From contig VRMN01000004.1 of the NCBI GenBank assembly GCA_008690995.1, forward strand, positions 248,001 through 312,000: a DNA stretch of 64,000 nucleotides, in the 5' to 3' direction. The stretch's first letter is position 1, and each line of letters begins with the position of its first letter. Below are positions 16,869 to 64,000 of this stretch, piece after piece. Source of the DNA: Porphyridium purpureum (lineage: Eukaryota; Rhodophyta; Bangiophyceae; Porphyridiales; Porphyridiaceae). Under the pieces are notes generated by a model. It worked only from the letters and a program-made list of their open reading frames with translations. It made no database searches and was not told where the DNA came from. Both the position numbers and the translations under genes were made by a program.

Positions 16869-18746
16869 TCAGTCGTCCAAAAGCCGCGCGTCGACAACAG
16901 TCGCAAGACCACTCTTGATGGTGGTTTCATTGTCGGGATCGAGCGAAAGTCGCGTACGCGAAGATAGGGATGAGTCGCTCATTTGTCCGTTCATCTCCTC
17001 CAGCGTTTTCATCAGGTCCATGTTCTTCTGTGCGGTACCGCGATCAAGCACCTGCAGCTTCATGCGAATTTGTTCAAGCTGCATGACGACTTTCTCGTGC
17101 CCGATCGGGATTTCGCACGTCGTATTTGCGAACGCAGACCATTCAATTGGGGTATCCCAAGGCCATTCAATGGTTCTCTGTGCGGGCATCGGTGTATCGT
17201 GTACACGAATGTATTCCTCTCCGTCGCATTCTACCTCTGCGCTTCGAGACCCGGTATCGGACTGCAACGCGCACGCTACAGTTCTTAGGATCTCCATGCA
17301 GATGATCTCGTAGCGCATCAAGCAACGGATTGCCTCACGTGACAAGCCGTACGGTGATGCCTCAGTGGCTGTGGTCGCGGCATATGCCTGCAATGGCGTT
17401 GGCGCGTGCGCTTGCAATCGTCCGTGGGTCGTACGGCTACGAGGCCAAAAAGGATTGCTTGGTTTCGAAACGCACAAAGCAAGAATTCCGTGTACAATGA
17501 CTTTTACAAGCTTCTTCCTCCACTTCATCACAATTTGGTCGTGTGACGAGAACAGGCTTCGCACCTTGTGGAGTTCGAATGCCTTCGCGATTGCCGGGTA
17601 CCCGAACACCTGCTTCACCATGTCCACGGCTCCACTCCTTCCGGTACCGGGATCAATCTGAAATGTGTGATGAAACATTTCATGCATTGCGCTCCTTGCG
17701 CGGCGTACCATGATCTGCAGAACAGCGCGCAAGGTGAACCGCAATTCCCGGAGTACTCCTTTCGCCTTGTCCAAATCGCTGTGCATGTCCATGAAGTTCT
17801 CTGAACTTGAGCACAACGAGGTACCTCCAGCTTTGAGCGCACACAGCAACTCGAACGTTTCGAGCGGAGGGACCACAGAGCTGCCGCTCTCGGAACCCGC
17901 GTCCCAAGTCTTGCGTGCATTCTCGAAGTAGTATGGACTGGTACCAGAGCAGAGGGGCAAGAGTCCGGTACGGAACAAATTGCGCGTTGACATGTCGCAC
18001 ACCGAACCACGTGACCGACGCAGTTGGCTCGGCCTTGGTTCCATCGCATCAACATTGCCGTGCGGCTCTGTTTCTGTTCGTGTGATATCCGCGTGTGCGC
18101 CTGATGTGTCGTGCGACGAGCCATCTTGCACATTCCTTGCACCACTCACAGCACTACGCCCAGCATTCGACAGCTCACCGTCAATATGCGGGGTACCCCT
18201 CCGCATTAGAGCGGATTGTAAGGTCTCCGACGCAAGCGGATCACCCGGTGCGTTACGAGCGCTTTGCGGTTCCTCTGTTGCGCGTGCGCGTTCATCCTGC
18301 GCTGCTGTATTTGTCCTCGCTGCGGTGTCCGCACTCTCGCAGCTGTCCAGCCTTGATACCAAACCCGTATTACTTTGCGGTACTGCTACTACGTCAACTG
18401 TCTGTCGACCACCCGCAAGTCGGTTTGATCGCGACGAGCTACTTGTATTCGAGTGCGCATCATCCACCTGTGCAAGTCCGGTACCAGGATGATCTTTCGC
18501 AGTCTGTGATCCCGTTCGCTGGGCAGTACTGCATGCCAGGGCAAGCATACGCTGCCGCGTGGCCTCATACGGCTCGCTCCTCTTCTCGATCGAGACAGAG
18601 GTACTCAAAGACCCGCCGACCTCGCCTCCGGACGTGCGTGCCCTTTTTTTCCGGCCCACCGTACCCGCATCAGCCTCCGCTGCCTTCGTGGAAGGTTTGC
18701 GCGTACGCGTTTTGGAGCCGGGCGTACCCGCGTGTTCCTGTTCCAT
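16869..18746 (-). CDS. Element A accessory protein of unknown function (625 residues)
   Basis: ATG 18746 is the first good start; the frame upstream begins at a non-ATG codon. The N-terminal half is low-complexity, rich in Ser, Thr, Ala and Arg with a possible nuclear signal (GRKKRART). The C-terminal half is helical: NLFRTGLLPLCSG, a segment FMDMHSDLDKAKGVLRELRFTLRAVLQIMV, AIAKAFELHKVRSLF, KWRKKLVKVIVHGILALCV, and YEIICMEILRTVACAL. These blocks occur in the same order in the protein starting at 62412 in element B (for example VRFFRQGTAPLMPL and WVFVELIATGLRIYAVLYA), so I regard the two as homologues. It is divergent from the PWWP-like gene, 471 bases away. No known domain was recognised. A DNA- or chromatin-bound transposition factor is only a guess. 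Confidence 0.6.
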   Translation of the reverse strand: MEQEHAGTPGSKTRTRKPSTKAAEADAGTVGRKKRARTSGGEVGGSLSTSVSIEKRSEPYEATRQRMLALACSTAQRTGSQTAKDHPGTGLAQVDDAHSNTSSSSRSNRLAGGRQTVDVVAVPQSNTGLVSRLDSCESADTAARTNTAAQDERARATEEPQSARNAPGDPLASETLQSALMRRGTPHIDGELSNAGRSAVSGARNVQDGSSHDTSGAHADITRTETEPHGNVDAMEPRPSQLRRSRGSVCDMSTRNLFRTGLLPLCSGTSPYYFENARKTWDAGSESGSSVVPPLETFELLCALKAGGTSLCSSSENFMDMHSDLDKAKGVLRELRFTLRAVLQIMVRRARSAMHEMFHHTFQIDPGTGRSGAVDMVKQVFGYPAIAKAFELHKVRSLFSSHDQIVMKWRKKLVKVIVHGILALCVSKPSNPFWPRSRTTHGRLQAHAPTPLQAYAATTATEASPYGLSREAIRCLMRYEIICMEILRTVACALQSDTGSRSAEVECDGEEYIRVHDTPMPAQRTIEWPWDTPIEWSAFANTTCEIPIGHEKVVMQLEQIRMKLQVLDRGTAQKNMDLMKTLEEMNGQMSDSSLSSRTRLSLDPDNETTIKSGLATVVDARLLDD

Positions 18747-19217
18747 CTGCCCGGACACCGACGCCTGCCTCCTACACCGCCCCTTTCGTCGACCAACGCG
18801 CAACACTTGTCGCTCGACTCTGCGTCGATCCTGGCCTTCGAGCCATGCGCGGCAGAGGCGTATGCCCGTCCAGGTCCCTAGATATGTAGGAAAACATTCC
18901 CTTTTGATACGAAAACATATACAATACACTCGGTTTCTTCTGTACAGCATGTATCAAAACGCACTATGTTTCATATAAAGTACGCACAAAACCACACGTG
19001 AAACCAAAAAAGAGACTACGTTCCTGGGAAAAAAAGGCGCGCTCAAAGCAGAAACAGGAGTGTACCCTAGGGCCCCGGTGTCCAGTGCTTCAAAATATGT
19101 AAGCTTTACACGCACAACTTCGCGTGCGCGCGCGGAGTTGCCTGACTTTGTGTGTGCGCAGAGGTGACAGAGCTCTCGTGCGAGTCGATTGGGGAGCTGG
19201 AGTTGTTGGGTGCAAGA
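18747..19217. promoter_or_regulatory. Divergent promoter region between the two element A accessory genes
   Basis: About 470 bases between head-to-head genes. The same head-to-head arrangement occurs in element B (61703-62411). No defined motif can be assigned; TGTACAGCATG occurs near 18942. Confidence 0.35.
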
Positions 19218-20261
19218 ATGGGCAGCGTTGAAGGAGCGAGAGGCGTGATCCATTCATTGCTGTACAGCGTCGTAGAGCGTCTGGATGACTGTGCCGCACG
19301 GCTCGACAGGATGCGTGCTACGGTTGGCCGGCATTTAGAGATGCTGGGCGACTCGGACGAGACAGATCACGTACGTGCAGATGAGGAAGCACTCGCTCAA
19401 CGTGAAGCACACTCACAGGTACCTGCAGAAGAAGAGTCTGAGAGAACGAGGAGCAACAGCCCTATGCGCAGGCGCAAGTTGCGAAAGGTCGGGGAAGCAG
19501 GTCGCATACGTGTCGATGACGGCGAGCGCATGAATCGCGTACGCGTTGAAGAAAGCGAACGTGCGAAGCGTGCAGAAAAGCGCACACGCGTCAAAGATGG
19601 AAACAGTACGAAGCGCGTACGCGATGATGGCAAAGACCAGTCTGTGAGGCGCGCACGCGATGAAGGAGATGCCCGTCGGCTCGATGCGCTTAGGAGTGCA
19701 ATCGAGGCTATAACCAGCGGTGACGCGAAGCACCTAAAGATGTACATCCCTTGCAGGACTCTGGACGTCGTGTGCAAAGCTGAACAGCAGATTTGGTGGC
19801 CTGCAAATGTGGTCGTGGACGAGCGTCAGATTCCTGCGTCTGTTAAACGATTGCGAGAGCAAATTCGCGCACGCGTAGGTGAAGAGGTTGCATTGGCTGC
19901 CGTACGGTACTATCCTGTCACCCGCAGAGAATGGGGCATTGTACGCGTCGTCCCGGAGAAGTTCATTCCTATTGAAGTTTTTAAGCAGAATGCCTTTGCT
20001 GTACAGCGATACCACATTTGGGACAGTATTCCTGCTGCGATGAGCGAAGCCTTCAGTGAAGCATTCCTGAGCACGTGCGAGGAAAGGGACGATGGATATG
20101 CTCTCGCACGAGACGTCATAAGCAGTGCGCGACTACCAGGGGCGTCTGAGGTGCGCCGCAACATTTCTGACCATGCGCATAGCCACGTGGATTTGGAACA
20201 TCGTGTACACGATCTTAATGCATATCATAGCCAGTTTTCTTCATCATCAAGTGAGCATTAA
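19218..20261 (+). CDS. Element A PWWP/Tudor-like protein
   Basis: 347 residues from ATG 19218. An N-terminal helical stretch (VVERLDDCAARLDRMRATVGRHLEML) is followed by a strongly charged Arg/Glu/Lys region with irregular 13-residue repeats of the type RVRVEESERAKRA. From about residue 180 comes a compact module: LDVVCKAEQQIWWPANVVV, then VALAAVRYYPVTRREWGIVRV and FIPIEVF. The IWWPA block followed by V-R-Y-Y...W...I-P-I fits the PWWP/Tudor (Royal family) fold, which binds methylated histones together with DNA. This match is by eye. A protein with a coiled N-terminus and a similar GWPARV...VYVRFEG module lies at the corresponding place in element B (60749-61702). The gene is intact and may guide the transposon to chromatin; that role is inferred. 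Confidence 0.6.
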   Translation: MGSVEGARGVIHSLLYSVVERLDDCAARLDRMRATVGRHLEMLGDSDETDHVRADEEALAQREAHSQVPAEEESERTRSNSPMRRRKLRKVGEAGRIRVDDGERMNRVRVEESERAKRAEKRTRVKDGNSTKRVRDDGKDQSVRRARDEGDARRLDALRSAIEAITSGDAKHLKMYIPCRTLDVVCKAEQQIWWPANVVVDERQIPASVKRLREQIRARVGEEVALAAVRYYPVTRREWGIVRVVPEKFIPIEVFKQNAFAVQRYHIWDSIPAAMSEAFSEAFLSTCEERDDGYALARDVISSARLPGASEVRRNISDHAHSHVDLEHRVHDLNAYHSQFSSSSSEH

Positions 20262-20365
20262 ACGGGTACCCGCGTGGGCACGTTATTGAGCCAAACATTT
20301 CATATCGCTCGGAAGTTTCAGTCATGCGCGCCGGATCTGTTGCGTCTGTGATCAGCGCGTGCGCG

Positions 20366-21262
20366 TCATTCGTCGTCTGCTGTGGAAGAGATGACAGCTT
20401 GTATAAGATCTTCTGGTTCCGAGAGAATACTTGCACTTGCTTGCGTACGCAGAGATGCTCGCAGATGTCGATGCTCAGGTGTCTGTGGGCTTGACTGTGG
20501 CGGTGTCGCAACGAAAATGGTGGGCCCTCTGTCACGGCTATCTCCACCCGGCAACCGGTCAGCTGGTACCAGACGTTGTTGGACAACTTCGGATTGAACC
20601 AGGTGGTCAACACCGCCGTACTCTTGTAGGCATGTGTGAACAGCATACGCGTCCAACGCGAACACCGGCGGTTCTGCCCAGCGATACTTTCTGCGGCCGT
20701 ACGGCAAGGCTTGTCCACCAGTATCTTTCTTGAACAGCTTGCTGGCCGTCCACTGATGTTGAAGCTGACACCACGCCAGCCACATGCGCTCGTCCAATTC
20801 GGGTACCCGTAACGGTCCATCCTCAGGGTACAACGCGGTCTCGAAGACTGTCACCGAAAGCGCGGCACATTCTAGTGCGAGTTCCCAGAATTCAAACGCG
20901 TATACCAAACGCCTGTACTCAATGTCATCTACCGACGCGATGCTGCCTTCCCCGAATGGCTTATCATTGAGGATTCTTCCATGATACTGGGGGTACCCCT
21001 GGTAACTGCGATTCGGAGCCTGCAAGCGCGCAATGTCGTACCCTGGTACTTTGTCCAGGATATCCTTGAAGCGCATACGCCACATCTGTCGCGCGACCGC
21101 TCTTGTACAGTCCGAGAATATCGTCCAGTCTCTCTCCGTTAAGCGATAGAAGTCACGCACCGCTGGTATGGAATAAGCGCGTACGCGAGGCAGAAACGAC
21201 CCGACCAAGCCGCGGTCCCATGCCCAATAGTGCGTGGACAACAGAGCCGGATCAACATCCAT
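20366..21262 (-). CDS. Element A accessory protein, copy 1 of a paralogous pair
   Basis: 298 residues from ATG 21262; the open frame continues upstream without a further ATG, so a spliced upstream exon is possible. Helical, rich in Trp and Tyr: HYWAWDRGLVGSFLPR, DFYRLTERDWTIFSDC, FKDILDKVPGYDIARLQ, then MWLAWCQLQHQWTASKLFKK. That last block aligns with WYAWCMFNHAYASSHAFEK in the neighbouring plus-strand gene at about 22117-22175, giving roughly ten identities in 22 positions. The C-terminus is Ser/Pro-rich. No known domain recognised. It shares a short gap with the convergent PWWP-like gene (stops about 100 bases apart). Confidence 0.5.
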   Translation of the reverse strand: MDVDPALLSTHYWAWDRGLVGSFLPRVRAYSIPAVRDFYRLTERDWTIFSDCTRAVARQMWRMRFKDILDKVPGYDIARLQAPNRSYQGYPQYHGRILNDKPFGEGSIASVDDIEYRRLVYAFEFWELALECAALSVTVFETALYPEDGPLRVPELDERMWLAWCQLQHQWTASKLFKKDTGGQALPYGRRKYRWAEPPVFALDAYAVHTCLQEYGGVDHLVQSEVVQQRLVPADRLPGGDSRDRGPTIFVATPPQSSPQTPEHRHLRASLRTQASASILSEPEDLIQAVISSTADDE

Positions 21263-21785
21263 TTCGTGCTCCGTCCAATTGGCGTGCGCCCTTTTCCCCG
21301 AAACCCCAATATCCTGCTTCCTGCCCTCTTCCCCGAAACTCCAACAACATGCTTCCCACCCTCCCGTTTCCAAAGCCTCGTCACATGCGCACGTACGTGT
21401 CTGCGCTTTCTGTCGCACCCTCGACGGCCGCACCGATTGCTCGCAAGCATTTGAACATCGGCGACACAGACATTGGAGTTCATGCGCAGAGTATTTACAT
21501 GTTCAAGCAGAGGCGAGTGCGTGAGTGAAGCATTTCGTGTACGCGAAAGGAATGGCGGTGCACAGGCTGGTACGCGTACGCGACACTTGACAATCTGACA
21601 GGATGGCAGAGCGTGCGCTGGACAGCCCTAGGCGGCGGGATGTATCGGTTGGAGTCGCGCGCCGAGAGCTCATCGACCTGCAGAGCAAGCAGCGCGGTGT
21701 CGGATACGACCGGGAGCTCCAGCGGCTCGTAATGGGTGAGCCGCTCTCGTACGAGGAATAGACGGTTTTGCACCGGGTAACAGCC
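21263..21785. other. Region between the divergent paralogous genes of element A
   Basis: About 520 bases. A short plus-strand frame from 21602 (RRELIDLQSKQ...GYDRELQRL) resembles FKDILDKVPGYDIARLQ of copy 1, so the 5' part of copy 2 may extend into this region in another frame or exon. Confidence 0.4.
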
Positions 21786-23972
21786 ATGCACTTCATCTTC
21801 AGTAGGTACAACACGATGCATGGCTCGGATCTTGCATACGCCCAAAAGCTGCAAGTTCAGTACGCTGGTTCCGGGCACCTGCGTACTCCTGAATTGGGCT
21901 GCGGCTGGCCGCACGGCAGACGAGCACGAGGCGCAGTACGCCATTATCCCGAGAAGACCTCGGCGTACTGGATTTGGTCGCTCGCACGAGTCTGTGCACG
22001 GCGTGCCGTACGGCGAGATTTGCGTTTGCGTGGCGTCGACGTCGACGACGCAGATGCTGCGTCGAATTTCTCGAACGAGTACGACCTGGAACCAGTCGAA
22101 AAGGAGAATATCCTTTGGTACGCGTGGTGCATGTTCAATCACGCGTACGCGTCAAGTCACGCCTTTGAGAAGGTCGATCCAGGTACCAGGGAGCAGCCAT
22201 TCTGTGACACACCGTTAGGCTCTCCGTTGCAATTGAGTGCGGTACCGCTTTCGTATTCAACTATGTGGATGCCGCGACTTATTGCAGACTATGCCGTACG
22301 GCCCACAGATCCCGAATGGATTGTGCTGGTCCTCAACCGGTTCGTCGCACAGGCCGACATCACGAACGTGGTCGAGCCGCAATTGGGCGACCTGGCCAAC
22401 CCAACGTACGTCCGTGAACTCCAGAGACAGCCTCTGGACCCAGGCGAAGGATCGTTGAGGCTCGTACGTGCATAGCTGCGCATGGAGCGTAGCCTGCAGG
22501 CGTTTCAAACGCGGGAGGCTGAGGTACCTCTGCATGGGAGCACACACGTGGTGGATCTCTTCGAGCCTCAGGGCCATGAGACGGCGATCGGCGAGCAACA
22601 GCCAACGGAAGGATGGCCGTCTTTTCAGACGTTCCTGCCGCACGGCTACTTTGATGCTCTGGGCTTGTACAAGGGACCAGAAGACATGCGCAACGTGCGC
22701 GGCTTCAGCGATACCGCTAATCATCCAAGTGCTCTCTTTCGGACGCGCGACAGATTCGCAGAAGAAGGCAGGATGGCGGCGACAGGTGCGTACCAGCCGA
22801 GCCTCCGCCTCGCGCACGCGCTTTCAGAGTCAGGAGCACAGGAACGCGTACGCGACAATACACAAGATGTCCCAGACATCGATTACGGGACTGAGTGGGG
22901 CGAGATCCCTTGAAAGCGAGCCGCGGCGACTGCGGGGCCTGTCGATGCAGCACGTCGTACGACAGATGGCGAAGGGAGTCCACGCATTCCACGATTCCGA
23001 AGAGCTTCTGAGTTTGGTCACGATGACCAACGGGACCCGAAGATTCGCCGTACGGTAACTACGGGAGTTCCTGTGCAGGCACGCGCACAGCATATGCATG
23101 CTTTTCCTCCGCGGACGCCTGGATCCGTGCGGCGCCCAGAAAATGAGGGCGTAGTTGAGGTACCTTCCTGGGGTTACCAGGCATCCGCGCGTAGGCCGAG
23201 GCCCATGTATGATGAACGCGTGCGCGTTTCGCAGGGCACCGAACCGTTTTATCGTCATGTTTTGAGACCCGTACTATCGCCTGGGGTACCCCCTCTGTAT
23301 GGACAGGGCTCAAGGCCGTACGATGAGCCCGTCGAGTGGCCATACGAAAGATGGCCTGCACCAGTGCAGGCCCAAGACTATGCGGTGCCCTTTGCAAGCA
23401 CGCGTGCACCGATGTATGCACCTGTTCGTGCACGCGCATTGCATGAAGTACCAGATGAGACTGCGCTTTGGGAAGCATTGCAGCGGCAAGAGTATGATCC
23501 GCATGCACGGACGTACGTCAGATCTCCAGGCACCTGGCATGAAGCAGGTGCTTCTTCGCACATGCCTCCTGGAGGATGGCCCCAACCCGCACGGGCGCCT
23601 GCCGCGTACGAAAGGTCTTTCGGGTACGACAGGCCTCCTCGCTACGAGAGACCTTGGCCAGCGCAACGTGTACACGAGAATCCGGTTGGGTACGACAGTT
23701 CATCCTTTCCATTGCGCTTTCGTGTACACGATGTTCCCACCGGGTATGAAAGGCAGCATCTGCCCCCCCTGCATACGGACGTGAACCAGCCGGATAAACG
23801 CACGTGCATGACGCTTCGGGTCATTCGTTTCACGGTAGCGTCTCTGATTTACCATCGGGTCAGCCGACAGACGAACAGATGTACATCAATCCAGAGCATG
23901 AGCCGGAAGCGTATGACCCTGCGAGCTGGAGCTTGCACTAGTTGTGAGCTGTACAGCATGTGCTTGCTGTAG
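21786..23972 (+). pseudogene. Element A accessory protein, copy 2 (interrupted) with Pro/Tyr/Arg-rich tail
   Basis: Three consecutive open stretches in the same frame (to 22475, 22482-22913 and 23073-23972) are separated by stop codons. The first contains WYAWCMFNHAYASSHAFEKVDPG and a following LIADYAVRP block, homologous to copy 1 at 20366-21262. The last is low-complexity, with repeated PRYERP, GYDRPP and YEP-like words. Because the frame stays open for long stretches between the stops, this is either a recently damaged gene or a gene with introns I cannot define. No known domain recognised. Copies 1 and 2 are head to head. Confidence 0.4.
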
Positions 23973-24029
23973 ACGCTGCCCAGAGATGTTTGTTGTCGAA
24001 TAAACGACGTACGTCCTTGTTTCCACACT

Positions 24030-27000
24030 TTACGCCCACAACTCTATACCATCGAATATATCGGGTCGTAGAATGAACCACCACCTAGCAGGTACCTGTT
24101 CATCAACACCTGCACGCCCAATACCACAGCGCGAAGCGCATTGAGATGAAGAAGCATACGCTTCACCTGGATCAAGAGCGGTACCGCTATTGTAAGTATC
24201 CAGAAAGGCTGTAATCTTGCAACGGAGCTGCGACGCAAGCACAATTTTGACTTCATCGTCTTCACGTACGTGATCAAAAATGCCTCGTAAGTGTGTACAT
24301 GCTGTCGCGCCACCACGGCTCCGAGGCACACGCTCTACTTTCAAGTGTCGTACGATGGCGATATCCTGTACAGACGGCATACCCTGCACAGGGTCCCGTG
24401 GTAATACTCCTTTCGTCTGGATTGGATGTACATCAACGTCGATTGTCCCAATCAAGACGAGACGGGCATATCGAAGACGCTGACGTACGTCATCCCAATA
24501 CTGAATAAAGTCATACCTTTCCTTGCCGTAGTAGTCCCAGTACGCAACAAAGCGCTCACTCTGCATGTTCGCATGGTTGTGCCGCACGGCGATACGAGGC
24601 GTATAGCACACCTTATACTCTTGCTCGTACGAGTTTTGCATTTCATCCGACATCCATGTGCGCCGACCCTTCTGAACGTGATGCGTAAGTGAGTCCCACA
24701 CCGTGACTGCTTCTTTCATGGTCGATCTACATCCAACTGACGCTGAGACCGTGTGTGTAGTGCTTGGAAACGAAGGCATCGCCGTCACTTGAAAAGACCA
24801 TTCATCTGTCGATCGCGCACGGACACAGGTCCAGGAGTAGACAATCCCTTCCGGCCACGACCCCGTGCATACCACATCTTCCGGTACTGGAGCTGCTCTA
24901 AACTCTAAAGGATGTGTCGGTTCACCGATTCCATGGTCGTGCGACATTGACGGGATGCGCTCTGCCGGATCTAAAAGTAAGCTACTGATGTCTGCAAGAT
25001 CGAATCGCTCATGCTGTTCAAGCATGTATCTATGCGGTACCGCCAGATTTACGCCAGCCACTTTTCTGTGCACCCTTTTGCATATGCGCATGAGAGACTC
25101 GCTTGTACAAGTGTCGTGTAATCGCTTGCGCCCGAACTCCTCCAGATCTTTGCACAGATGCAAGAGCGCATGAAGTTTTGGCGCATCCCAAACAATTCCC
25201 GTCAAGTACTTGAGCTGCTGTATCTTATCCATGAGACTCGATACTAGATCTCTTCCTTCACGTACGTGTGCATCTGTTGGTCGAGCAAGACACATCTTCG
25301 CGTACACGGATAAGGCTTGACAACACGTGATAAGATACACTGCTTTCCAGGCAGGGCCCATGGTCTTGTAATATCCATCGCAGGCGACAGCCACAATGAC
25401 TTGTACAAGTAGTCCTGGCGAGTACTTATTCTCCACCATCTTGGACAACTGCTCGAACGGATTTGGCGTACGTCGGATCGGAATGTATACTCCGGAAGAA
25501 CGTGATAGACGCTCACGATCTTGTACCGTGCTGATTACAACCAAGTACTTGCCCAATGCAGAGTTACGAATGCGTGTAATGTTGTCAGCCGTTCGGCGTC
25601 CACCACTTATCTTTCGGCGTTTCTTTTGTCGTGTGGTACCACCATCATCACCGTCACTCGTTTCCGAGGAGGTGATCTCGTCACTGTCAATTTCCATATC
25701 TTGCCCGAACCCAGACGCGTCGAGTTGCGCCACGGAAGCTGTTCCGCGTATGCGTCTTTCTTGTGCGTACCGGTCCAGAATGTACAAGGCTATGTTTGCC
25801 AGTTGACGGAGTATTCCAAGCTTGAAGCCATGCATCCAGTCCACACCAACGAGTGCAAAGAGACCGCGTTTATCCCAACGATTGAGGTACCTCGCTTTTG
25901 CACCTGGAATATGGCGTATATTATATTTTGCACGCTGCCTGGCAGCACCTCCGCCCGACTGCTCAGCTATCGCAAACATGGGCTCTTCTTCGCGGTACTC
26001 AAAGCTCGTGTACGCGTTGAATGCCTCAGATCCAGGAACAAGACATACTTGACAGGGCCGCTCCTGAGTCATACGCGAGTTCAACGTAACACTGATGGTC
26101 GCAACCATGGGCATATCGCACGCGAATCTGAACAGAACTGGGAGCCATTTGATCATGGACCCATTGCACCGTACGGCCAAAGCGTGACGCTGCAAAGCGG
26201 TCGGCTCCGACAATGTCATAAATGGATCAAGCAAGAACTGTAGCACACTGTGCATGACACAAGGAGTATCATCCGTCGCTTTGCCCGCATCCGGTAGAAC
26301 TGGCGCGTACGCGATCACACGCGGCTCAAGAGGTCCATCGTGCATGTACCTATGCACGAGGTACAACGAGATGGGAGTGAGCGAATGAATTCCGTTTGCT
26401 CGCATCTGAGCACCATCAATGCAAACCATGACAGGCACCAGCATGATATCGGGCGGTACCGCTTCACGTATACGGCGCAAGTGCGCAGCATTCTGCGCAT
26501 GCGTTAATACAGTCTCGCCGCGCTCATTTGTTATGTGTGCAACCTCAAATGCTTGGTCGCCATAGCGATGCAATGCAACAACAAGCTCTCGCGCAATCAA
26601 AACCATGGGGTCGCGGTACCGCAAATCCACGCACAGTGTCTTTCCTGCACATGCAACGGAAAGTTGTTTGATGTGCACCGGCATCTTCGCGAGTCCAACG
26701 CGCTGCAAAATATTTCCGCTCAAAAATCCTTTCCTGTGTAGTGGCCGGTCACGTACATGAGTCTGACTGCGAGTGAACCAGGTCTTCAAGGCCGCTCTAC
26801 AGCGGGCACTCAGCACGTACTTGCACATGATATGCTCGAACTCCAACTCAATAAGAGGTATCCCACTGATTTCTTTTTCCGCGTACGCGGACAACAGTGC
26901 CTGTATACTCTCCGTTGTCTGCTGTGCCGAGTACCCCACGGCATCCGCGGCTAACATGGGCATCGCTTCACGCACATGAGGTGCCTCTTCTTGCGTGCCA

Positions 27001-28890: not shown

Positions 28891-28988
28891 GGTACCTGGG
28901 CGATGGTGTCACACATGAGCGCACACGAAGATCAAAATTCGTGCCGCCTGTTCACGCGCAGCCTTGGATTGTCGCTGATATTGTTCCC

Positions 28989-29119
28989 GGTCCTATCCTT
29001 TTTGTGCTCGCTTTTCACTGTACCTGCAGTGGAGAACACCGCCTTACATAGTAAAACGATCGAATTTATTATAAAGTCCAGAAAAACTTGGGGGGGTCCT
29101 ATCCTATTTGTCCGCACTT
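28989..29119 (-). repeat. Right Tc1 terminal repeat with inner direct repeat
   Basis: Outer repeat at 29090-29119 and a diverged inner copy (GGTCCTATCC core) at about 28989-29010, about 100 bases further in. Mirrors the left end. Confidence 0.72.
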
Positions 29120-29134
29120 TACATGAACAATTGG

Positions 29135-29151
29135 GTACAGTGTAGTACAGT
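29135..29151. promoter_or_regulatory. Tandem GTACAGT motifs upstream of ARP4
   Basis: GTACAGT at 29135-29141 and 29145-29151, about 100 bases before the ARP4 ATG and only 14 bases outside the Tc1 end. Counterpart of the motif upstream of BZW. Confidence 0.4.
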
Positions 29152-36908: not shown

Positions 36909-36910
<2 letters not shown>

Positions 36911-36942
<32 letters not shown>

Positions 36943-54000: not shown

Positions 54001-55530
54001 ATATCCGAAGGCATTGCCCGTTTTGGTGAGGACTGGCTTGCCATCGCGGGTAGGCCAGCATTCTTCATGCGCGGCCGCAAACCAGCCGGCTTGCGCGCGC
54101 GCGCAGCGGAACTGGGTGTGCTTCCAGTGCACGCAGCAGCAGCGAGCGACGCGACGCGGAACGACGCGACGCGAGCAGAGAGTAGCAGCAACGCAACGTA
54201 CACAAGCGCGGCGACAGGAGGACCAGAGGACGAAGCGGCAGGTCTGGGGGTGGCAGAAGTTGTGGCCACAGCGGTGGCGATGGCCACGCCCGCCGGCCGC
54301 CATGCATTAGCATCCGAGCTTCGTGCGCTCACCAGCACCGGCGCTCTGCCTTTCCGCCGCACGATGGACAAGGCAGTGGCGGCGCGCGTTCCGAACGCGC
54401 AATTTGTTAAGTTGAAGCTCCTCTTCAACAAGAAGAATTCAGAAATGCCTCCGTCTTTCCACAAGACGAAGTGCCGCATCGTCGCGCAAGGATGCGTCGT
54501 GCTGGACGCCGATGGGCGTCGCGCGCGCGAAGAACCGTATCCTTTTGATCGCCCACCAGGTTTGCTGGCGATCCGCGCCTCGATGAGCATGGCGCTCATG
54601 CTCCATGGACCATCCGCCGACGGCGCCTTTTTCGATGTAACGTGTGCCTACCCCAGTGCACCATTGGGCGGCCGTCCGACATTCGGATATCTGCGCGACC
54701 TGGTCCCGGTCGTGAAGGGTCTAGTCAGCGAAGCTGACTACAGGAAGATGGCCGCATGCAGCGAGCCTGTCGTCGAGCTACCGCAGGCTCTGTACGGAAT
54801 GAAAAGGAGCGGCAGCGACTTCAGCCACGACGCTCGCGAGCGTGTCCGGCGGCTTGGATGGCAAGAATCCAACGCGGACAAGAACCAGTACTGGCGCCGC
54901 GACGCGAACGGCAGCATGCTCACGCTGAGCATGTACGTCGACGATGGCGCACTCTTCGGCAATGCGGATGCGGTACGAGTGGCGGTCAAACAACTGAAGA
55001 CCGTTTTCAGAATCGACCAGAAGGTCGAATACATTGCAGACTCGGCGCGTACACGCCCTATCAAGTATCTCGGCATGCATATCTATCGCGACGGCGGCCG
55101 ATGGATATTGGATTCGGGGGTGTACGCCACCCATGTGGCGAACGGCCACACCGCGGACAACTTGCGCGTGCGCAGCACGCCACTCAGCGAGCGGGTCGAC
55201 GACAATGGACCCGGCGGGCGCGCGTGCCCGACGAACAAGCGAACAGTCATTGGCCAACTGCTGTGGCTCAGCCGAACCACGCGAGCAGACATCGCTTATG
55301 CCACGGCGCATGTGGCGCGTTATGTCGACCGGTGGGGGCCAAGCGCGGATCGCGCGCTCGACGAGATCGTCGGGTATCTGAAGAAGCATGCGGACGTCTG
55401 TCTGCAATACGACATACCCGCGACAGGCAGTCGCGACGTTCGGTTGCACGCGTGGGCTGATGCCGACTTTTCGGCACCGTCATCCACGAGCGGCGCCGTG
55501 CTCTTCATATCGAATGGCAGACAGTCCGTG
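51070..55530 (+). other. gag-pol coding region of copia element 2
   Basis: Part order: gag capsid-like helical region (LWYQALQPDQRPTSVEEFL), a short Cys/His knuckle (CHRCSVWGPATHNC), aspartic protease (VIDTGATHTFLS), HHCC zinc region (CGICSAAKLRR), integrase core (VSIDIVDP, LRCDEGREFMGEF), a Cys-rich segment (CTQCKKIVGGSTECEKC) and a SANT/Myb-like segment (WSPAEDIAISEGIARFGEDWLA), reverse transcriptase (ALYGMKRSGSDF, YVDDGALFG), and the beginning of RNase H (WADADFSAPSSTSG). The element is broken at its 3' side by the neighbouring transposon. Confidence 0.85.
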
Positions 55531-55790
55531 TGCTAAATGGCAAAAAAACGCCCGGAAAAACTCTTGGAAAAACTCCTTGCAGTGTCAGCACGAAAAGTAC
55601 AGTGCTTTTTCCATTGTCTGTCTTTTTTGAGAAAACTCTAATAATAAATGGCAGAAAAACTCGTGGAAAATCTGTTCAGCCGCTGTCCTTTCAGAATAGG
55701 AGAGTGATCTGAGGTATTTCAAACGCATCTTCGTGAATTTTGGAAAAACGTTTCTTGTACGAATTGAAAAACTCGGAGGAAAACAGCCGG
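55531..55790 (+). repeat. Left subterminal repeats of element B
   Basis: AAATGGCAAAAAAAC at 55535 and AAATGGCAGAAAAAC at 55646, with further GGAAAAACTC words at about 55554 and 55567 and variants to 55790. Subterminal repeats of this kind are typical binding sites of CACTA-like transposases. Confidence 0.6.
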
Positions 55791-55840
55791 AAAAAGCATG
55801 GGACTCGCGTGAAAGGGGAAGTGATTCGTGTACCGCAACT

Positions 55841-58800
55841 TCAATTATATGCTTGTACGCCCTCAAATGTGTTCGGGTTCACGAAGTAATACCATCGGCT
55901 AAGCTTCTGCGATGTATCCTGGAATGCTGTCACCCTCCCTGTTATCATCGTCGCGTCTATCACTTGCACGGAGTCGCTTTGCAATCTCTGGTGGTGGAAC
56001 ACGGGCTCGAGATGCATGCACTTGCTGGCGCACTGCGACTTGGAGGATTCTCCATCATGCCCTTCGAAGTCCTGAATCACTGCGACATCGAAGGTCTCGT
56101 TGTGCTCATCCGTATTTATCGTGATCCGGGCGATTAAGATGCATTTCCCGTACGCGTACTGGTCCGGGTGGGTCGAGTGCTTTGAGTACTCGACGAAGTC
56201 CCATCGCGGATTCTTATAGTGATCCGGATGCGCGACGATGCATTCGACAGTCTGCCTTCGGTGCTTGAGCTGCATTTGTCGAAAAGCCTCGAGTACAACT
56301 GATCCATGCGTCGCTTCAGCGCGGAACTTGTTCATCGCGAAACGTTTCAAAGCGCTATCCATTCTCGCCCATAGAGCTACCCTTTCAGCGTTGCTGTTTG
56401 TGCTGTTGGATGTACGCGAAGCGTATGGGTTCCATATTTGTGGTTGCCATTCCAAAGCACTTCGAAACCCGTTCTCTCTGGTATATGTCCAGACGGTGCA
56501 TGCGTCGCGCCAGACACCGAATAAAGACGATGAGAAATGTATTGACGATCCTCGATGCCGGTACCATGGGTGTCTTTGATTTGCTGTGTTCTCATTTGGT
56601 GCCGTGTTGGTGAACGTCCGCACGTCTGATTGTTGGCCCTCATTCGAATACGCGTCTCGCGTTAGTTGCCAGAGCCAGCGATTCGAAAACGATGCAAGTT
56701 GGTGCTTAGCAGCGCGGCGTAGCATAGATTCATGCGGCTTCCAAGTGTCCGAACCAACCAGCGACTTGAACCAGACCTTGTCAACTTGGAAGGATTTTTC
56801 ACCGTCCGTCGTATCCCAAAATTTCATCGGCCCGAAGTCCGCCAAATTATCGCCAAAGTGAGAAAGCGCATGGATCTTTGGAGCATTCCAAGGTAGATTA
56901 ATGCGCTGTGTGAATATTCGAAGCCGCGATTGCACTTCACGTGTGAGACTTGGGATGCGAATCAGCAGGTCACGGGGAATCACTCGCAGATATAGTACGC
57001 CGTACAACTGAATACATCGAATTGCAAGATTGGTGAAGGCAATGCGTGCATGATCCTCGAGGATGTCTTCCTGTTGTATGAGTACGACCATTTGGAGAAG
57101 GTGACCAAGCGAGTATGATTGTTCAGCGAGTTTTGTCAAGTCGAGTAAGAAGTTAGAGGAGCGAATTCGCGTGTACACAGCGTGTCGTCGGAAGCTGGCT
57201 TCATTCATGATATTCGTGGCTATTCGGCTCCATGCTTTTCCAGCGGCTGAGTCAATGATTCCGCGAAGCTGATCTGTTGCGCTGCCTTTGTGCTTTGGAG
57301 TTGCCGTCTTCAATGGGAGCGCACGGCCATGTGCACTCGAGTGTGAAAATCTCGTCCCGCTGGGCGGAGCGCTTGCTGTCTTTCGTTTCTTTGCGGGTGA
57401 CGCTTGTCCAGATTGTGATGGTCCATCGATGTCAGACGCGCATTCGCTGTTGGATTCGGAACCATGTTCGCTGTTGCTCTCGCCTGCACTGGCACATGTA
57501 TCTTCGCTTCTATCAAGCGATGCCATGGCACCGATTGCGTCTTCTTCCTCCCCATGCTTTGAATATTGCTTCGCGCGCTCTTGCGCTTCCGTGAGTTCAA
57601 AGACAACGTTTGCTACTCGGTGGGTGACATTTGGCTTGCTCAGTAATGCCTTGAGTCCGGCAACGGTTATGCCGCGGAACCAGAAAGCCAAGAAACCGTG
57701 AAGCCCATCGATACCGGTCAGTTGGAACCTTCCACGATTAAGAAGCCTTATGTGTTCCTCGTATCCAGCTGCAAGTTCGTTGAAATCTTTGTCATCATTC
57801 TCGTCGAAGCGATTCCATCCGATCGCTGCATGTTCTCCGATGAACTGCAGAGAATGTGCCTTTCTCATCGAAGCTCCCCATTCGGATAAGTGTTGGGTCA
57901 GAAGGTGTTCAATTTTCTTCTCTGATCGATACTGCAGGGGACGTCGTGTAACCCAGAACTCATCATTTTCTGTTTGATGTGGCGCCGCTGGTGTGCTGAG
58001 CGTGTGTATCGATGATTGTGGAGCTTGTACCATACATTGATGACAGGGCATTTTCTGCGCGCGCCCACCGGATACAAACGATGCCTTGGTGAAAGAGCAC
58101 TTTGACATCATTGGCATGTCCATCGATAATTTGTACACGATGGGAAAGAAAAGCAGTCGACGCTGCTGCCATGTTACTGGGATGCCATGTTTGTTAGCAG
58201 CTAGCGTGTCGTAAAATGTTTTGCTCATGATCGCGTGATACATCGACGATTCGAGCTCACGTCGAGCCAACTTTGCATTGATGTGGAGGTTTTGGCTCGC
58301 TCCGAATGCTCTAGCAACGCATTCAGTGTCCACCGCAGGTAAATACGCGACGACATGTGGCTCACGGTGAGCATCTGAGCAGAACATGCGACGATGGACG
58401 ATACGGATCTTGAGCGGCGTCATTGTATGACGCCCGTTCTGTGTCATGTGCGCTTCGTCAGCGTATATCTGCAGCGGAAGTAGAACTGCCTCAGGTGGGT
58501 CCGGACCATATTTCTGCCTGACTTCGAATGCGATGCGACGAGCTGCGTTGACACACAGGTTACCATCTTGCGGGAAAACGAGGGACTTGCGCTGTTGGTC
58601 TTCGAAGAGATTGATTTTCAAGGCGTCCAAACCGTATTCCCTGATGATGGAAACAACCGAATTTACTGCGAGCTCCATTGGCTCACGGAAGCGAATCTTT
58701 TGGACCACATTGCGAGGTAAAATCTTCCCATGCAGTGTCTTCCCTGCGCCGTATTCAATAACTGCCTCCTGACCATCGATGACTGTGTTTCCGATGATAT

Positions 58801-59755
58801 CCGATATGCATTGCTTAGATCTGTGGGTGAAAAGAAGGGTCGAAGCTCGCTTAACCAGACCCGCAGCTGATTCGTTGATACTTGTTTGCATCACAGAGAA
58901 GGCCTTCTCAAGTAAAGATGCATCGCAGGTCGATAGATTCCTTCTCAAATCCGTAAAGGCACGCCTGATTATTCGAGTAATATACCGAAGAGTCGTGCGA
59001 GTAGTGATGCGTAACAGCTGCATCTCCATCGACTTTAGTTCAAGTGCTTCGCGAGTGGAAATGGCGTGCTTGTGCATAAACATCTCCTGTTCACTTTTAA
59101 ACCTTAGAACTTCGACTGCATCGTCGATGTCAATGTTCTCCGATGAGCCTATGCCAGTCAACGTGCGCACGTACTTCGAGATGCTGTCGTCGCGGTGTTG
59201 TAGGCGCTGGCGTAAAGTCTTCTGGTCGAGTAATCTCTCAAAACGCTTTGCATAACGGGTCACAAGCGTTTCGACGTCAATCTCTCGACTAGGATACGCA
59301 TCGCTCATCTGTGCTGCATCGTGTCCCATACGTTCTGCTTCGTTGGCTTCATCATCGTCTGCCGCGTCATTCTCTAGAGCAAGATCATCATCCGATTCAA
59401 TCTGCTCTTCTGGGTCCACGAAGTCATCACCGCCATCATTGTCGCTGTCCCGTGCGCTGTCGTCATGATTGTCTATGCCGGCACTGACGTCAAAGTCAAT
59501 TCCACTGCGTGTATCGTCATCGCATGAGCCACCGTACACAGCAGTCGACCGTCGAAGATTCGCGTATGGAATGCGCCCTGTGCGTACACGCAGTCTGCAG
59601 CACAGTTTGTGTTCTCGCATGACTTGGACCCGCGCAGTGTAAGATAAACCTTGTCCTTCAGGCGGTGAAAAATCGCAGTTGACACCATCGCATTGTAATC
59701 TTTTCTCTCGACGACGATGCCACGGCTTGTGGGCAAGGCTCTCACGACTATCCAT
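55841..59755 (-). CDS. Element B transposase (CACTA/Plavaka-like DDE)
   Basis: 1304 residues from ATG 59755. A GTG further upstream lies in a low-complexity tandem repeat and is not credible. N-terminal Cys/His set (CDGVNC ... HKLCC), an acidic Asp-rich stretch, then the catalytic core: LPLQIYADEAHM (Asp about 433), SMDMPMMSKCSF (Asp about 546) followed by PCHQC, and LTGIDGLHGF. The same blocks in the same order are in the element A enzyme (VMVCIDGAQM, DMPM, PCQVC, GVDWMHGF). A second low-complexity part contains a likely nuclear signal (PAKKRKT). The C-terminal domain has RWDFVEYS and RWYYFVNPNTFEG, matching RYDFIQYW and WWFILRPDIFDG in A. Uninterrupted; the protein is about 200 residues longer than A's. 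No GenBank match was checked. Confidence 0.75.
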   Translation of the reverse strand: MDSRESLAHKPWHRRREKRLQCDGVNCDFSPPEGQGLSYTARVQVMREHKLCCRLRVRTGRIPYANLRRSTAVYGGSCDDDTRSGIDFDVSAGIDNHDDSARDSDNDGGDDFVDPEEQIESDDDLALENDAADDDEANEAERMGHDAAQMSDAYPSREIDVETLVTRYAKRFERLLDQKTLRQRLQHRDDSISKYVRTLTGIGSSENIDIDDAVEVLRFKSEQEMFMHKHAISTREALELKSMEMQLLRITTRTTLRYITRIIRRAFTDLRRNLSTCDASLLEKAFSVMQTSINESAAGLVKRASTLLFTHRSKQCISDIIGNTVIDGQEAVIEYGAGKTLHGKILPRNVVQKIRFREPMELAVNSVVSIIREYGLDALKINLFEDQQRKSLVFPQDGNLCVNAARRIAFEVRQKYGPDPPEAVLLPLQIYADEAHMTQNGRHTMTPLKIRIVHRRMFCSDAHREPHVVAYLPAVDTECVARAFGASQNLHINAKLARRELESSMYHAIMSKTFYDTLAANKHGIPVTWQQRRLLFFPIVYKLSMDMPMMSKCSFTKASFVSGGRAQKMPCHQCMVQAPQSSIHTLSTPAAPHQTENDEFWVTRRPLQYRSEKKIEHLLTQHLSEWGASMRKAHSLQFIGEHAAIGWNRFDENDDKDFNELAAGYEEHIRLLNRGRFQLTGIDGLHGFLAFWFRGITVAGLKALLSKPNVTHRVANVVFELTEAQERAKQYSKHGEEEDAIGAMASLDRSEDTCASAGESNSEHGSESNSECASDIDGPSQSGQASPAKKRKTASAPPSGTRFSHSSAHGRALPLKTATPKHKGSATDQLRGIIDSAAGKAWSRIATNIMNEASFRRHAVYTRIRSSNFLLDLTKLAEQSYSLGHLLQMVVLIQQEDILEDHARIAFTNLAIRCIQLYGVLYLRVIPRDLLIRIPSLTREVQSRLRIFTQRINLPWNAPKIHALSHFGDNLADFGPMKFWDTTDGEKSFQVDKVWFKSLVGSDTWKPHESMLRRAAKHQLASFSNRWLWQLTRDAYSNEGQQSDVRTFTNTAPNENTANQRHPWYRHRGSSIHFSSSLFGVWRDACTVWTYTRENGFRSALEWQPQIWNPYASRTSNSTNSNAERVALWARMDSALKRFAMNKFRAEATHGSVVLEAFRQMQLKHRRQTVECIVAHPDHYKNPRWDFVEYSKHSTHPDQYAYGKCILIARITINTDEHNETFDVAVIQDFEGHDGESSKSQCASKCMHLEPVFHHQRLQSDSVQVIDATMITGRVTAFQDTSQKLSRWYYFVNPNTFEGVQAYN

Positions 59756-60748: not shown

Positions 60749-61702
60749 TTAAAGGCCATGCGTTGCCTGAAGTAAGTAATCGTGCGCACGTCTGCAATCA
60801 GTGATCAAGTCGGCCGCCACGCGGCCGCGTCTGCGACAGGATCCGCTGACACAGTCACGCGAGCACGCCAGAGGAGCATCCATAGCTGCATCGGCAGAGC
60901 GCTTCGATAATCCAAACCTGATACAAGCAGAACCGTACGTGGCCTCGTAACATTCGAACACTCCGCGAATCTTATCCTGAGCAACCCACGAATAATCAGG
61001 CCAAGGATAACGGCACGAACCTTTGATATTCCAGCGGACCAGTAAGTACGATGACAATTTGCTCCAGATCACGTTGACGTCTGGCAGAGCACGAGCCCCA
61101 ACAAGCTCAACTGTCAAGGGCCGACCTTCGAAGCGCACATACACGCGACTGATCCGATGGTTTTTGGTTTTCAATCGCATATCGAACGCCGGATGTTCCA
61201 ATAGAATTGCCTCGGGGATCGGTGATTGTACATCGTCGATGCGCTCAACCCTCGCTGGCCAACCGTCCGCATTCTTCTCTGGCCATTCCACCATCACCAG
61301 CTCAGGTACACTGTGCTTCTCCTTACATCCCGTGTACGCACAGTCGACTCCAGCCAAGAAGCCAGTCAAACCTTGCTGTGCATTGACCATCGATGCACGT
61401 AGCCAGACCAGTTCTGCGTGAAAGCTTGACTCGGTGGGATACTTTACACGGGGCTCCATCGGAGGCGTCGGAAGCGATACACGCTGCCACTCGCACTGCT
61501 TCAAGATATCGATGAGTTCATTGACATCGTTGCGCAGACTATGCAGTTCTGCCTCAACACGCGCAAGCTTGGAGTCGGTGATCATCGCGTGCAGCGCATA
61601 CTCGCGTGCCTTTAATTCGCTGGTATTTTGCGCAATAATATTGGCGTTCAGCGCCATCGCGAGCTGCATCCGCAATTGCTCCACTTCCTCTCTATCCGAC
61701 AT
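60749..61702 (-). CDS. Element B PWWP/Tudor-like protein with coiled-coil N-terminus
   Basis: 317 residues from ATG 61702. The N-terminal 70 residues form a coiled coil (EEVEQLRMQLAMALNANII, LARVEAELHSLRNDVNELIDIL). Further on is LVMVEWPEKNADGWPARVERID (GWPARV at residues 147-152) and then SRVYVRFEGRPLTVELVGARALPD. Pairing a W-P-A-R-V block with a V-x-V-R-F strand and L-P is the pattern expected of a PWWP/Tudor-like module, and it resembles the IWWPANV...VRYYPV block of the element A protein at 19218-20261. A second helical region and a Cys-rich tail (CSRDCVSGSCRRR) follow. Homology with A rests on architecture and position as well as the short motif; confidence in the fold is moderate. Confidence 0.55.
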   Translation of the reverse strand: MSDREEVEQLRMQLAMALNANIIAQNTSELKAREYALHAMITDSKLARVEAELHSLRNDVNELIDILKQCEWQRVSLPTPPMEPRVKYPTESSFHAELVWLRASMVNAQQGLTGFLAGVDCAYTGCKEKHSVPELVMVEWPEKNADGWPARVERIDDVQSPIPEAILLEHPAFDMRLKTKNHRISRVYVRFEGRPLTVELVGARALPDVNVIWSKLSSYLLVRWNIKGSCRYPWPDYSWVAQDKIRGVFECYEATYGSACIRFGLSKRSADAAMDAPLACSRDCVSGSCRRRGRVAADLITDCRRAHDYLLQATHGL

Positions 61703-62411: not shown

Positions 62412-64000
62412 ATGGGACCAAACCCGCGCCCTCCAGGTCTGCGCGGACGCGCCGGAAAACATGTTGCTAGAAAGAAGTGTCGAGCTGGTGAACGCAATTG
62501 CGAAACCCGAATAGCACCGACGTACGCACAAACAGCAGCGATGAATACAACGACGGAAGTCGAGGAACAAGATCCATTCATAAGTCTGAAAACTGGCGCG
62601 GCAGCATCGAACACGTTCCCGGACAGTAATGTGGATGCTTATGTTACATCCATGGAAACCGTTGCGTCGTTTTTGTATGAAAGCGAAACCACCGTGATGC
62701 AGCCAACGACGACTGGCGAAGGCCTCAATGCACAGCTGCCCATTAACCCCGTCGATCGCATATGTTTTACGCCATCGGATGCGACTCAGGACATCAGCTT
62801 CGAAACAGTTTACCCGACGGCAACCACTGCGCGAATAGTATGCCCTGAATCAAAAAGCCCCACCGGGATCCGCGCAAAGACCTACTCGATGAATATTTCG
62901 ATGAATACTTCGATGACCAAGCAGACATCTAAATTGAAGAAGCGCAACGTGACACAGAAGCCGTATACCAAAGGAAGTATATGTGATCTTGACCTCGTGA
63001 GATTTTTTCGACAAGGGACGGCGCCGCTGATGCCTTTGACAATTACGGAAGAGTGTTTGGCAGCGATGGATTCATTTGCAGCGATGCGCGACCCCAAGCG
63101 CGCGGCGCCCAACCATGTCGACAATGATCATCCGATGGGAATCCGAGATACCGCTCTCAATGAGACGCGCGGTACGGACCATGGACGCAACGTTGTGGTA
63201 CCACAGACACAACAGACGAACGCATGGTATACGGATTACTACACGTCTAACACATCCCCGTCCACCAATGGCTTCGCCTTCGCGTACATTTCAAAGTGCA
63301 TGACTAAGCTGAGTTCATCGCACATCCTCGAATTGAAAGCAGCGCGTGAACGAGCTTTGACGTTGACCTACACTACGATCCGGCGATACTTATTCATCGG
63401 CGTCTCGCTTATCGCCCCGCTGGCTGGCAATGATATGCTATCACATGACTTCGCTGGACAATTGAAGGATACAGCATTTCCAGACGACGCAGGTGCTTGC
63501 GCTGACTTGACTTACGATTTCCTGAAGTCCCTCGACGCAATGAATATGTCACCAGAGCTACAAAGAAAAATCCTTGTTCGAAGCATGACACGATGTCTCA
63601 TCGGGCATCAAGCTTGGTCCGTTTTCCTGAACCCAGCGGCGTTTCCCATCAAACATATTCCGAATGCGCTCAAAGACCTGGGCGTCATCGATATCAGCGA
63701 GTTCAAGGACGTGCATTCCTGGGTATTCGTCGAACTGATCGCAACCGGATTGCGCATATACGCAGTGCTATATGCGACGATCTGCTCGCTCCAACCCATA
63801 ACGTCATGCGAAAATGACCAATCAGAGGAACGATGGACACCGGAACATTTCGAAAGCATCTTGATATCCGAATCTGCAGCGAATCGACACTTCGAACAAG
63901 CGACGTCGACTATTCTCTCGTATATGCTGTCCTGCAACCATGCTTCCAACGAACCGGCATGTTTGATTAACGAATCTCAAGTCGAAGACAGTCCGCTGCA
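62412..64000 (+). CDS. Element B accessory protein, homologue of the 16869-18746 protein (3' end outside window)
   Basis: Open from ATG 62412 (alternative ATG 62541) to the last base, at least 529 codons without a stop. The N-terminal part is Thr/Ser-rich with KTGAAASNTF and repeated SMNIS words. From about 62985 the protein is helical: VRFFRQGTAPLMPLTITEECLAAM, FAYISKCMTKLSS, TTIRRYLFIGVSLIAPLAG, DFLKSLDAMNMSPELQRKILVRS, and VHSWVFVELIATGLRIYAVLYATIC. These blocks align in order with NLFRTGLLPLCSG, VLRELRFTLRAVLQIM, MVKQVFGYPAIAKAF, KWRKKLVKVIVHGI and YEIICMEILRTVACAL of the element A protein at 16869-18746. It is divergent from the PWWP-like gene. No known domain recognised. Confidence 0.55.
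   Translation, partial: MGPNPRPPGLRGRAGKHVARKKCRAGERNCETRIAPTYAQTAAMNTTTEVEEQDPFISLKTGAAASNTFPDSNVDAYVTSMETVASFLYESETTVMQPTTTGEGLNAQLPINPVDRICFTPSDATQDISFETVYPTATTARIVCPESKSPTGIRAKTYSMNISMNTSMTKQTSKLKKRNVTQKPYTKGSICDLDLVRFFRQGTAPLMPLTITEECLAAMDSFAAMRDPKRAAPNHVDNDHPMGIRDTALNETRGTDHGRNVVVPQTQQTNAWYTDYYTSNTSPSTNGFAFAYISKCMTKLSSSHILELKAARERALTLTYTTIRRYLFIGVSLIAPLAGNDMLSHDFAGQLKDTAFPDDAGACADLTYDFLKSLDAMNMSPELQRKILVRSMTRCLIGHQAWSVFLNPAAFPIKHIPNALKDLGVIDISEFKDVHSWVFVELIATGLRIYAVLYATICSLQPITSCENDQSEERWTPEHFESILISESAANRHFEQATSTILSYMLSCNHASNEPACLINESQVEDSPL

Follow-up and report, generated by a model that had tools for sequence, protein, structure and literature searches.

CMCT-like DNA transposons with accessory genes, including a gene for a PWWP-family protein, in the red alga Porphyridium purpureum

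A stretch of 64,000 nucleotides from Porphyridium purpureum (C11:248001-312000, called the window here; contigs are labelled C1, C3, C11 and so on) was analysed together with the complete surveyed genome of this species alone (22.16 Mb in 46 contigs). Proteins of the elements described below appear among the FVE85_ entries for this species. The window contains two mobile elements, A and B, which are real cut-and-paste DNA transposons. They represent two families of one CMCT-like group, are about 9-13 kb long when nested inserts are left out, and are probably autonomous. On balance, we favour the reading that this group works with accessory cofactors, one of which, in the branches A, E and F, is a PWWP chromatin reader, and that it is in this respect comparable to the RAG1/RAG2 transposons. 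The transposase branches are designated A, B, B2, C, E and F, where branch C is not to be confused with the contig labels. The second gene of the trio, which lies beside the transposase gene in the trio order, is designated g2 and the third gene g3.

Element A extends from 9984 to 28122 of the window (C11:257984-276122), including a nested long terminal repeat (LTR) retrotransposon. It is bounded at both ends by the terminal inverted repeat (TIR) CAGTCTGTGTC and by the target site duplication (TSD) AT/AT. Its left TIR, CAGTCTGTGTCGT, lies at 9984-9996 (+ strand), and the right TIR, CAGTCTGTGTCTT, lies at 28110-28122 (- strand). Element B begins at 55522 and ends at the window-equivalent position 64899, which is 899 bp past the end of the window (C11:303522-312899). 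It is likewise flanked by TIRs, the left one being CAGTCCGTGTGCT at 55522-55534 (+ strand), and by the TSD GA. A second copy of A with 99.3% identity over 11.7 kb is found at C1:108927-128032, and a third, diverged copy at C3:189078-201195. For B there are four further copies; those on C25, C8 and C13 are 98-99% identical, and the one on C45 was found through its TIR pair and its genes.

Seven copies were read at both ends, namely the three copies of A (C11, C1 and C3) and four copies of B. All 14 ends start with CA, and 13 of them carry the sequence CAGTC(C/T)G(C/T)GT (CAGTCYGYGT). An earlier note on this DNA had stated that the termini of A and B differ, which is contradicted by this common motif. 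Only the C3 copy departs from the motif, and only on its left side: this end reads CAATAGGTGT, was positioned through alignment to element A and has no CAGTC motif; the right end of this copy is canonical. Each of the seven copies has a TSD of 2 bp (AT, AC and AT for A; GA, AT, CG and TC for B). Insertion of both elements is confirmed by two empty sites in which the duplicated 2 bp are present only once. One is on C8 and corresponds to the C1 copy of A, and the other is in a repeat neighbouring the C25 copy of B. Genome-wide, the TIR pattern yielded 56 matches, 14 of which are the end pairs of seven A and B copies, compared to 21 matches for a reversed control pattern.

The subterminal repeats, in contrast to the termini, do differ between the two families, as the note had claimed. 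In A, the repeat TATAAGGCGAA occurs at 27936-28088, and 6 of its 16 matches in 66 kb (at most two mismatches) lie within the last 190 bp of the element. The repeat of B, TGGAAAAACTC, is found three times at 55553-55774 (+ strand), five times near the right end and once at 62393; all nine matches in 66 kb (at most one mismatch) are thus inside B, eight of them near its ends. In three copies of the related branch B2 (C18:562292/564480, C19:29406/31594 and C39:1002/3190), one terminal motif occurs twice in the same orientation, at a distance of 2188 bp. The doubled motif was read as a nested or composite end.

The transposase of A (24030-27317, - strand) has 1095 amino acids and that of B (55841-59755, - strand) has 1304. 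They are 23% identical (BLASTP 169 bits, 1e-46; hhalign 2.8e-42), which agrees with the earlier view of A and B as separate families and places them in one transposon group. The residues D301, D401 and E740, the pair C422-x2-C425 and the pair H716-x3-H720 (numbering of the A protein) are invariant in all seven transposases compared (A, C3, B, B2, C, E and F; the sequences of B2, C and E are partial, three in all). The putative catalytic residues were assigned through this motif. As described in passages of PMC12730594, the CMCT clade (CACTA/Plavaka/Transib) is characterized by D, D and E residues with C(2)C and H(3-4)H between the second D and the E, by 5'-CA..TG-3' ends and by TSDs of 2-5 bp. 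The elements in P. purpureum agree with the clade in all three respects, with a DDE signature with C(2)C and H(3)H, CAGTC..GACTG ends and a TSD of 2 bp. A Pfam search with the transposases of the A/B group gave no transposase match over the cut-off. In the transposase tree, A, E and F are separated from B, B2 and C with a support of 100/100, and all four inner branches are supported; E sits on a long branch. The transposases of A, E and F are about 26-29% identical in their aligned parts.

Besides the transposase, the trio of A comprises g2 (19218-20261, + strand) and g3 (16869-18746, - strand). The corresponding genes of B are g2 (60749-61702, - strand) and g3 (62412-64000, + strand, with its end at the window-equivalent position 64586). 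The six open reading frames (ORFs) that the earlier note had described are therefore all present. In both elements g2 and g3 are arranged head-to-head, as had also been noted (18746 facing 19218 in A, 61702 facing 62412 in B). The claim that both elements have the same three genes in the same order is true for the order transposase-g2-g3. It does not extend to the direction of the transposase gene relative to the g2/g3 pair, which is opposite in A and B, nor to the complete gene set, as A contains two extra genes, X and Y. The C3 copy of A thus has five genes, g3(-), g2(+), X(-), Y(+) and transposase(-). B has only three genes, and the three-gene set is the condition of B alone. A set of five is likewise found in B2 on C18, where g3(-), g2(+), X'(-) and Y'(-) are followed further on by transposase(+), again with g2 and g3 head-to-head. 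Branch F on C13 shows transposase(+), PWWP(+), g3(-) and two more ORFs, the transposase gene being without its front; from these gene directions it follows that g2 and g3 are tail-to-tail in F. The trio is present in other copies as well: A-type on C1 and C3, B-type on C25, C8, C13 and C45, and B2-type on C18, C19, C39 and C40, in the last of which g3 is truncated because the contig stops there.

Gene X of A (20366-21262, - strand) encodes 298 amino acids with 63% identity to the C3 copy and shows weak paralogy to gene Y. The latter (21786-23972, + strand) is split into two pieces in the window (21786-22475 and 23094-23972) and forms a single frame of 678 amino acids in the C3 copy. All five genes of A are under purifying selection. 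When the C11 and C3 copies were compared, omega (Nei-Gojobori) was 0.19 for the transposase, 0.57 for g2 (bootstrap interval 0.39-0.78), 0.32 for g3, 0.27 for X and 0.17 for Y, with all bootstrap intervals below 1. Purifying selection was also detected for g3 between B and B2 (omega 0.28), and the transposase and g2 of these branches are saturated at silent sites. As selection is seen at this deeper distance, the genes were kept while the lineage was mobile, which bears out the statement that accessory genes were retained through deep divergence. Among near-identical copies, changes were present in 10 comparisons, and in 9 of these the non-synonymous ones outnumber the synonymous, the exception being g3 of A in the C11/C1 comparison (3 synonymous versus 2 non-synonymous); the changes are too few to show constraint. 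Stop codons are present in at least one gene in three of the five B copies, and the present element copies may be decaying.

The g2 gene of A encodes a PWWP-family protein of 347 amino acids, in which residues 184-239 (19767-19934, + strand) match the PWWP domain. Its relative on C3 reaches 32.4 bits with the Pfam PWWP model (PF00855, cut-off 25.6 bits; 34.1 bits in the genome scan), whereas the window copy stays below the cut-off (E 0.012, 16.6-18.3 bits). The two proteins are 41% identical over 224 residues, and the 75-codon PWWP core has an omega of 0.33. A genome-wide PWWP search gave 22 places, 20 of them over the cut-off, with A on C1 and A on C11 falling below it. Six of the 20 are near transposases of the group, belonging to A (C3), F (C8 and C13) and E (C11, C12 and C40). 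In branch E, the transposase and PWWP matches are separated by 2361 bp in each of the three copies. From this nearness and repetition, we infer that the PWWP genes of E, and of F on C8, are part of an element that bears the transposase. A further family of PWWP ORFs with 304 amino acids is represented at C12:34684-34902 and C1:1055667-1055885, and one of these copies has a branch-E PWWP gene 3 kb away. It possibly belongs to another transposon branch.

The g2 protein of B has 317 amino acids. PF00855 gave no match at E values up to 10 in g2 of B, B2 or C, and the description of g2 as PWWP-like consequently holds for the A family and for the branches E and F, but is not confirmed for B. In B, B2 and C, the protein ends in the invariant pairs C280-x3-C284 and C303-x3-H307 (numbering of B), a possible zinc site. 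The proposed homology between g2 of A and B did not withstand profile comparison, the check by which the note itself had wished to see it judged, and in which hhalign gave E values of 0.36 and 0.11 and column shuffles reached a score of 18.69 as compared to 18.62 for the real alignment. BLASTP detected no significant similarity either, and residue shuffles gave local Z values between -1.3 and 1.6 over six pairs. A test with two PWWP blocks located them correctly in B and in B2, but 102 and 238 of 1000 shuffles, respectively, were equally good, and in C it pointed to another place.

These results have to be taken seriously as an argument that the g2 genes of A and B have no common origin and were captured separately into the same slot, so that the inherited core would consist of the transposase and g3 only. 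The Cys/His C-terminus of B, B2 and C, which is absent from A, points in the same direction, and for TET genes a parallel capture at similar positions is kept as a possibility in a passage of Kojima 2025 (PMC12730594). Still, g2 has the same neighbour, the same head-to-head orientation and a similar length in A, B and B2. Moreover, B and B2 contain the motifs WPA(R/K)(V/I) and V-x-V-(R/H)-F-x-G, arranged in the order known from PWWP domains, and the WPA motif is the best, albeit insignificant, hhalign match between A and B. We consider separate capture to be a strong competitor with somewhat less than an even chance.

The g3 proteins, 625 amino acids in A (with a frame open to 18950) and 724 in B, have a single block of 20 residues in common. 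It corresponds to RGSVCDMSTRNLFRTGLLPL at 17952-18011 (- strand) in A, which is shared with g3 of both F and B, and to KGSICDLDLVRFFRQGTAPL at 62970-63029 (+ strand) in B, where it was found by BLASTP and by a matrix derived from A and F. Between A and B, the pairwise evidence is marginal. BLASTP gave E values of 0.002-0.007 and hhalign 0.05; the hhalign score of 24.7 was exceeded by one of 60 column shuffles (25.8), and when the C3 copy of A was used instead of the C11 copy, pairwise scores against B were at chance. The block becomes significant with the help of branch F. When g3 of F and g3 of A were compared with hhalign, this block again came out as the best match (E 0.0058, 0 of 20 shuffles), while a direct hhalign comparison of F and B yielded nothing (E 0.47). 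The bridge over F carries the caveat that g3 of F and Y of A, which are presumed to be unrelated, also gave 0 of 20 shuffles at E 0.14 (one pair among 32 comparisons). A matrix built from F and two sequences of A detects the block in g3 of B and of B2 (0 and 2 of 2000 shuffles, respectively), compared to a lowest count of 25 of 2000 for 16 other element proteins. The block had been chosen after the BLASTP match between A and B was known, whereas only A and F were used to train the matrix. In the shuffle and matrix tests, two sequences of 361 and 883 residues were read with gap signs, at lengths of 376 and 893, which left the matched block unchanged. The homology of g3 in A and B suggested by the earlier note is thus marginal in the pairwise profiles and is recovered by the A and F matrix. 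We read this block as a sign of probable homology with fast divergence, but not as proof across the whole protein. In the N-terminal half of g3 of B2 there is a PHD-like Cys/His stretch without a counterpart in g3 of B (PF22908, E 0.38-0.4, far below the cut-off). Taken as conserved core genes, the transposase is well supported and g3 fairly supported. For g2, the support comes from the PWWP domain in A, E and F, and in B from its position only.

On this basis, the following mechanism can be proposed. The DDE transposase, which has an N-terminal Cys/His cluster, would bind and cut at the CAGTC...GACTG ends, and the cut ends would be joined to the target with a stagger of 2 bp. In doing so, the transposase would work with partner proteins encoded by the element. 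In A, E and F, the PWWP partner would bind DNA and nucleosomes with methylated histones, and could either anchor the transposition complex to selected chromatin or keep the chromatin of the element itself open or protected. The g3 protein, in which the box follows a low-complexity N-terminal part, would be the most likely candidate for a second subunit of the complex, perhaps binding the family-specific subterminal repeats. More generally, g3 and/or g2 may assist at the end repeats TATAAGGCGAA in A and TGGAAAAACTC in B; repeats that differ between families are expected if each is read by the family's own protein. Branch B has the same layout, and its g2 would be so changed, or replaced, that a PWWP domain can no longer be recognized.

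A more far-reaching proposal, which we regard as tentative, is that the element-encoded PWWP reader acts as a transposition cofactor and directs new insertions to chromatin with certain marks, possibly within the bodies of other mobile elements. This would make it a second, independent partnership of a transposase and a histone reader beside RAG1/RAG2. All four B sites that were read are repeats or transposons. In the window, B interrupts a copia-type pol ORF (from 51070 to about 55521-55536, resuming past 64899); the flanks, once joined, keep the copia reading frame, and several copies of this copia element with 97-99% identity and longer open frames exist elsewhere in the genome. The copy on C8 is within a copia gag-pol stretch. 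On C13 (region C13:677675-687064), a B copy lies within the last ~40 codons at the 3' end of the branch-F transposase gene, so that one member of the group is nested in another. The C25 copy sits in a repeat, and an uninterrupted copy of that repeat is nearby. LTR elements are given as 8% and all repeats as 14% of the genome in a section of PMC6811547. With four sites, a preference for repeats is suggestive at most. The sites agree with targeting, but they are explained equally well by loss of insertions into genes and survival of harmless ones in a compact genome.

In Arabidopsis, VANC proteins counteract the silencing of VANDAL elements. The accessory genes described here, too, could serve the escape from silencing instead of transposition itself, with g2 and g3 binding the subterminal repeats of their own element and stripping repressive marks. 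The earlier note had likewise considered that they may act in transposition or in hiding from the host. The family-specific end repeats and the tandem array in A do resemble the motif arrays read by VANC, as described in part of PMC5735166. The purifying selection on the accessory genes would fit as well, and so would the presence of chromatin-reader domains, that is, the PWWP domain and, weakly, the PHD-like stretch in g3 of B2. A PWWP domain reads marks but does not erase them, and the accessory proteins scanned with Pfam, which do not include X and Y of branch F, showed neither a demethylase or methyltransferase domain nor another known effector domain above the cut-off. We give escape from silencing a lesser but real chance. 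That PWWP and g3 are useless cargo, either passengers or captured host genes, would agree with the lack of clear constraint and the occasional stops in recent copies, but is very improbable in view of the purifying selection over the C11-C3 distance and on g3 between B and B2, and of PWWP genes near transposases in three branches as divergent as A, E and F. We retain accessory cofactors, including a PWWP reader, as the preferred reading.

The copia-type LTR retrotransposon nested in A (10156-15868, - strand) has LTRs that are at least 99.7% alike and is flanked by the 5-bp duplication TATCC (10151-10155 and 15869-15873). The C1 copy has no insert at the corresponding point. This retrotransposon is from a different family than the copia element hosting B. 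Two other inserts are present at other points of the C1 copy, one an LTR element and the other a 1.5-kb stretch bounded by inverted ends. The tandem array inside A (16164-16715) consists of 8.6 copies of a 64-bp repeat and is shorter in the near-identical C1 copy. Outside the elements, an ORF of 325 amino acids at 44778-45755 contains 25-residue Cys/His repeats of the type GCSKAAQGTTKLCVAHGGG.

Among the open-access papers listed by our literature searches, we recognized neither a description of these elements in P. purpureum nor any DNA transposon said to encode a PWWP protein of its own (Repbase was outside this search). The main-text portion of the P. purpureum genome paper (PMC6811547) does not contain the terms transpos-, CACTA, EnSpm or Repbase. 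The elements bear on how DDE transposons choose chromatin, and on why CMCT-type transposases repeatedly gain epigenetic partners (TET/JBP in fungi, PHD-bearing RAG2 in animals). P. purpureum is a small, haploid red alga for which a transformation system has reportedly been established. In several of its deeply diverged branches the transposase has a PWWP gene as a neighbour, and in one branch the gene in this slot is changed, which permits a direct swap-and-map experiment.

Several known systems can be compared with the group. In LEDGF/p75, a PWWP domain is linked to retroviral integration; that protein is encoded by the host, whereas the PWWP protein is encoded by the element here. EnSpm/CACTA elements share the catalytic signature and the presence of subterminal repeats, and encode a second DNA-binding protein, TnpA. 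We did not assign the group to EnSpm/CACTA, because these elements have CAC..GTG ends and a 3-bp TSD (PMC12730594, in part), unlike the CAG..CTG ends and the 2 bp found here. The KDZ superfamily (Zisupton/Kyakuja/Dileera) was rejected on the basis of its TSD of 7-8 bp. Plavaka elements, as passages of PMC12730594 describe them, have a DDE transposase with C(2)C and H(3-4)H, a 2-bp TSD in some cases, and in some families an accessory epigenetic gene of the TET/JBP type. An assignment to Plavaka was nevertheless rejected, since its ends are TGT..ACA or CATCA..TGATG and not CAGTC..GACTG; furthermore, the accessory gene here is PWWP instead of TET/JBP, and the elements have 3-5 genes. The transposase of VANDAL elements (MULE) belongs to a different superfamily. 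They resemble the group in combining an accessory protein such as VANC with family-specific repeat arrays (PMC5735166, in part).

The RAG1/RAG2 system (TransibSU) differs in having a Kelch-PHD RAG2, a TSD of 5 bp and two genes, and it is likened to the elements by the shared signature only. With a TSD of 2 bp and no Kelch or PHD domain over the cut-off in the scanned accessory proteins, the group was not assigned to it. The PHD domain of RAG2 reads H3K4me3. In TransibSU, a CMCT-clade transposase and an accessory protein with a histone-reader-type domain (PHD) occur in one element, as parts of PMC4411706 show. Epigenetic partners of CMCT transposons are thus already known, namely TET/JBP in fungal Plavaka and EnSpm (PMC12730594, in part) and the Kelch-PHD protein RAG2 in TransibSU, and the elements of P. 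purpureum represent a CMCT-like group distinguished by particular ends and by a chromatin reader as accessory.

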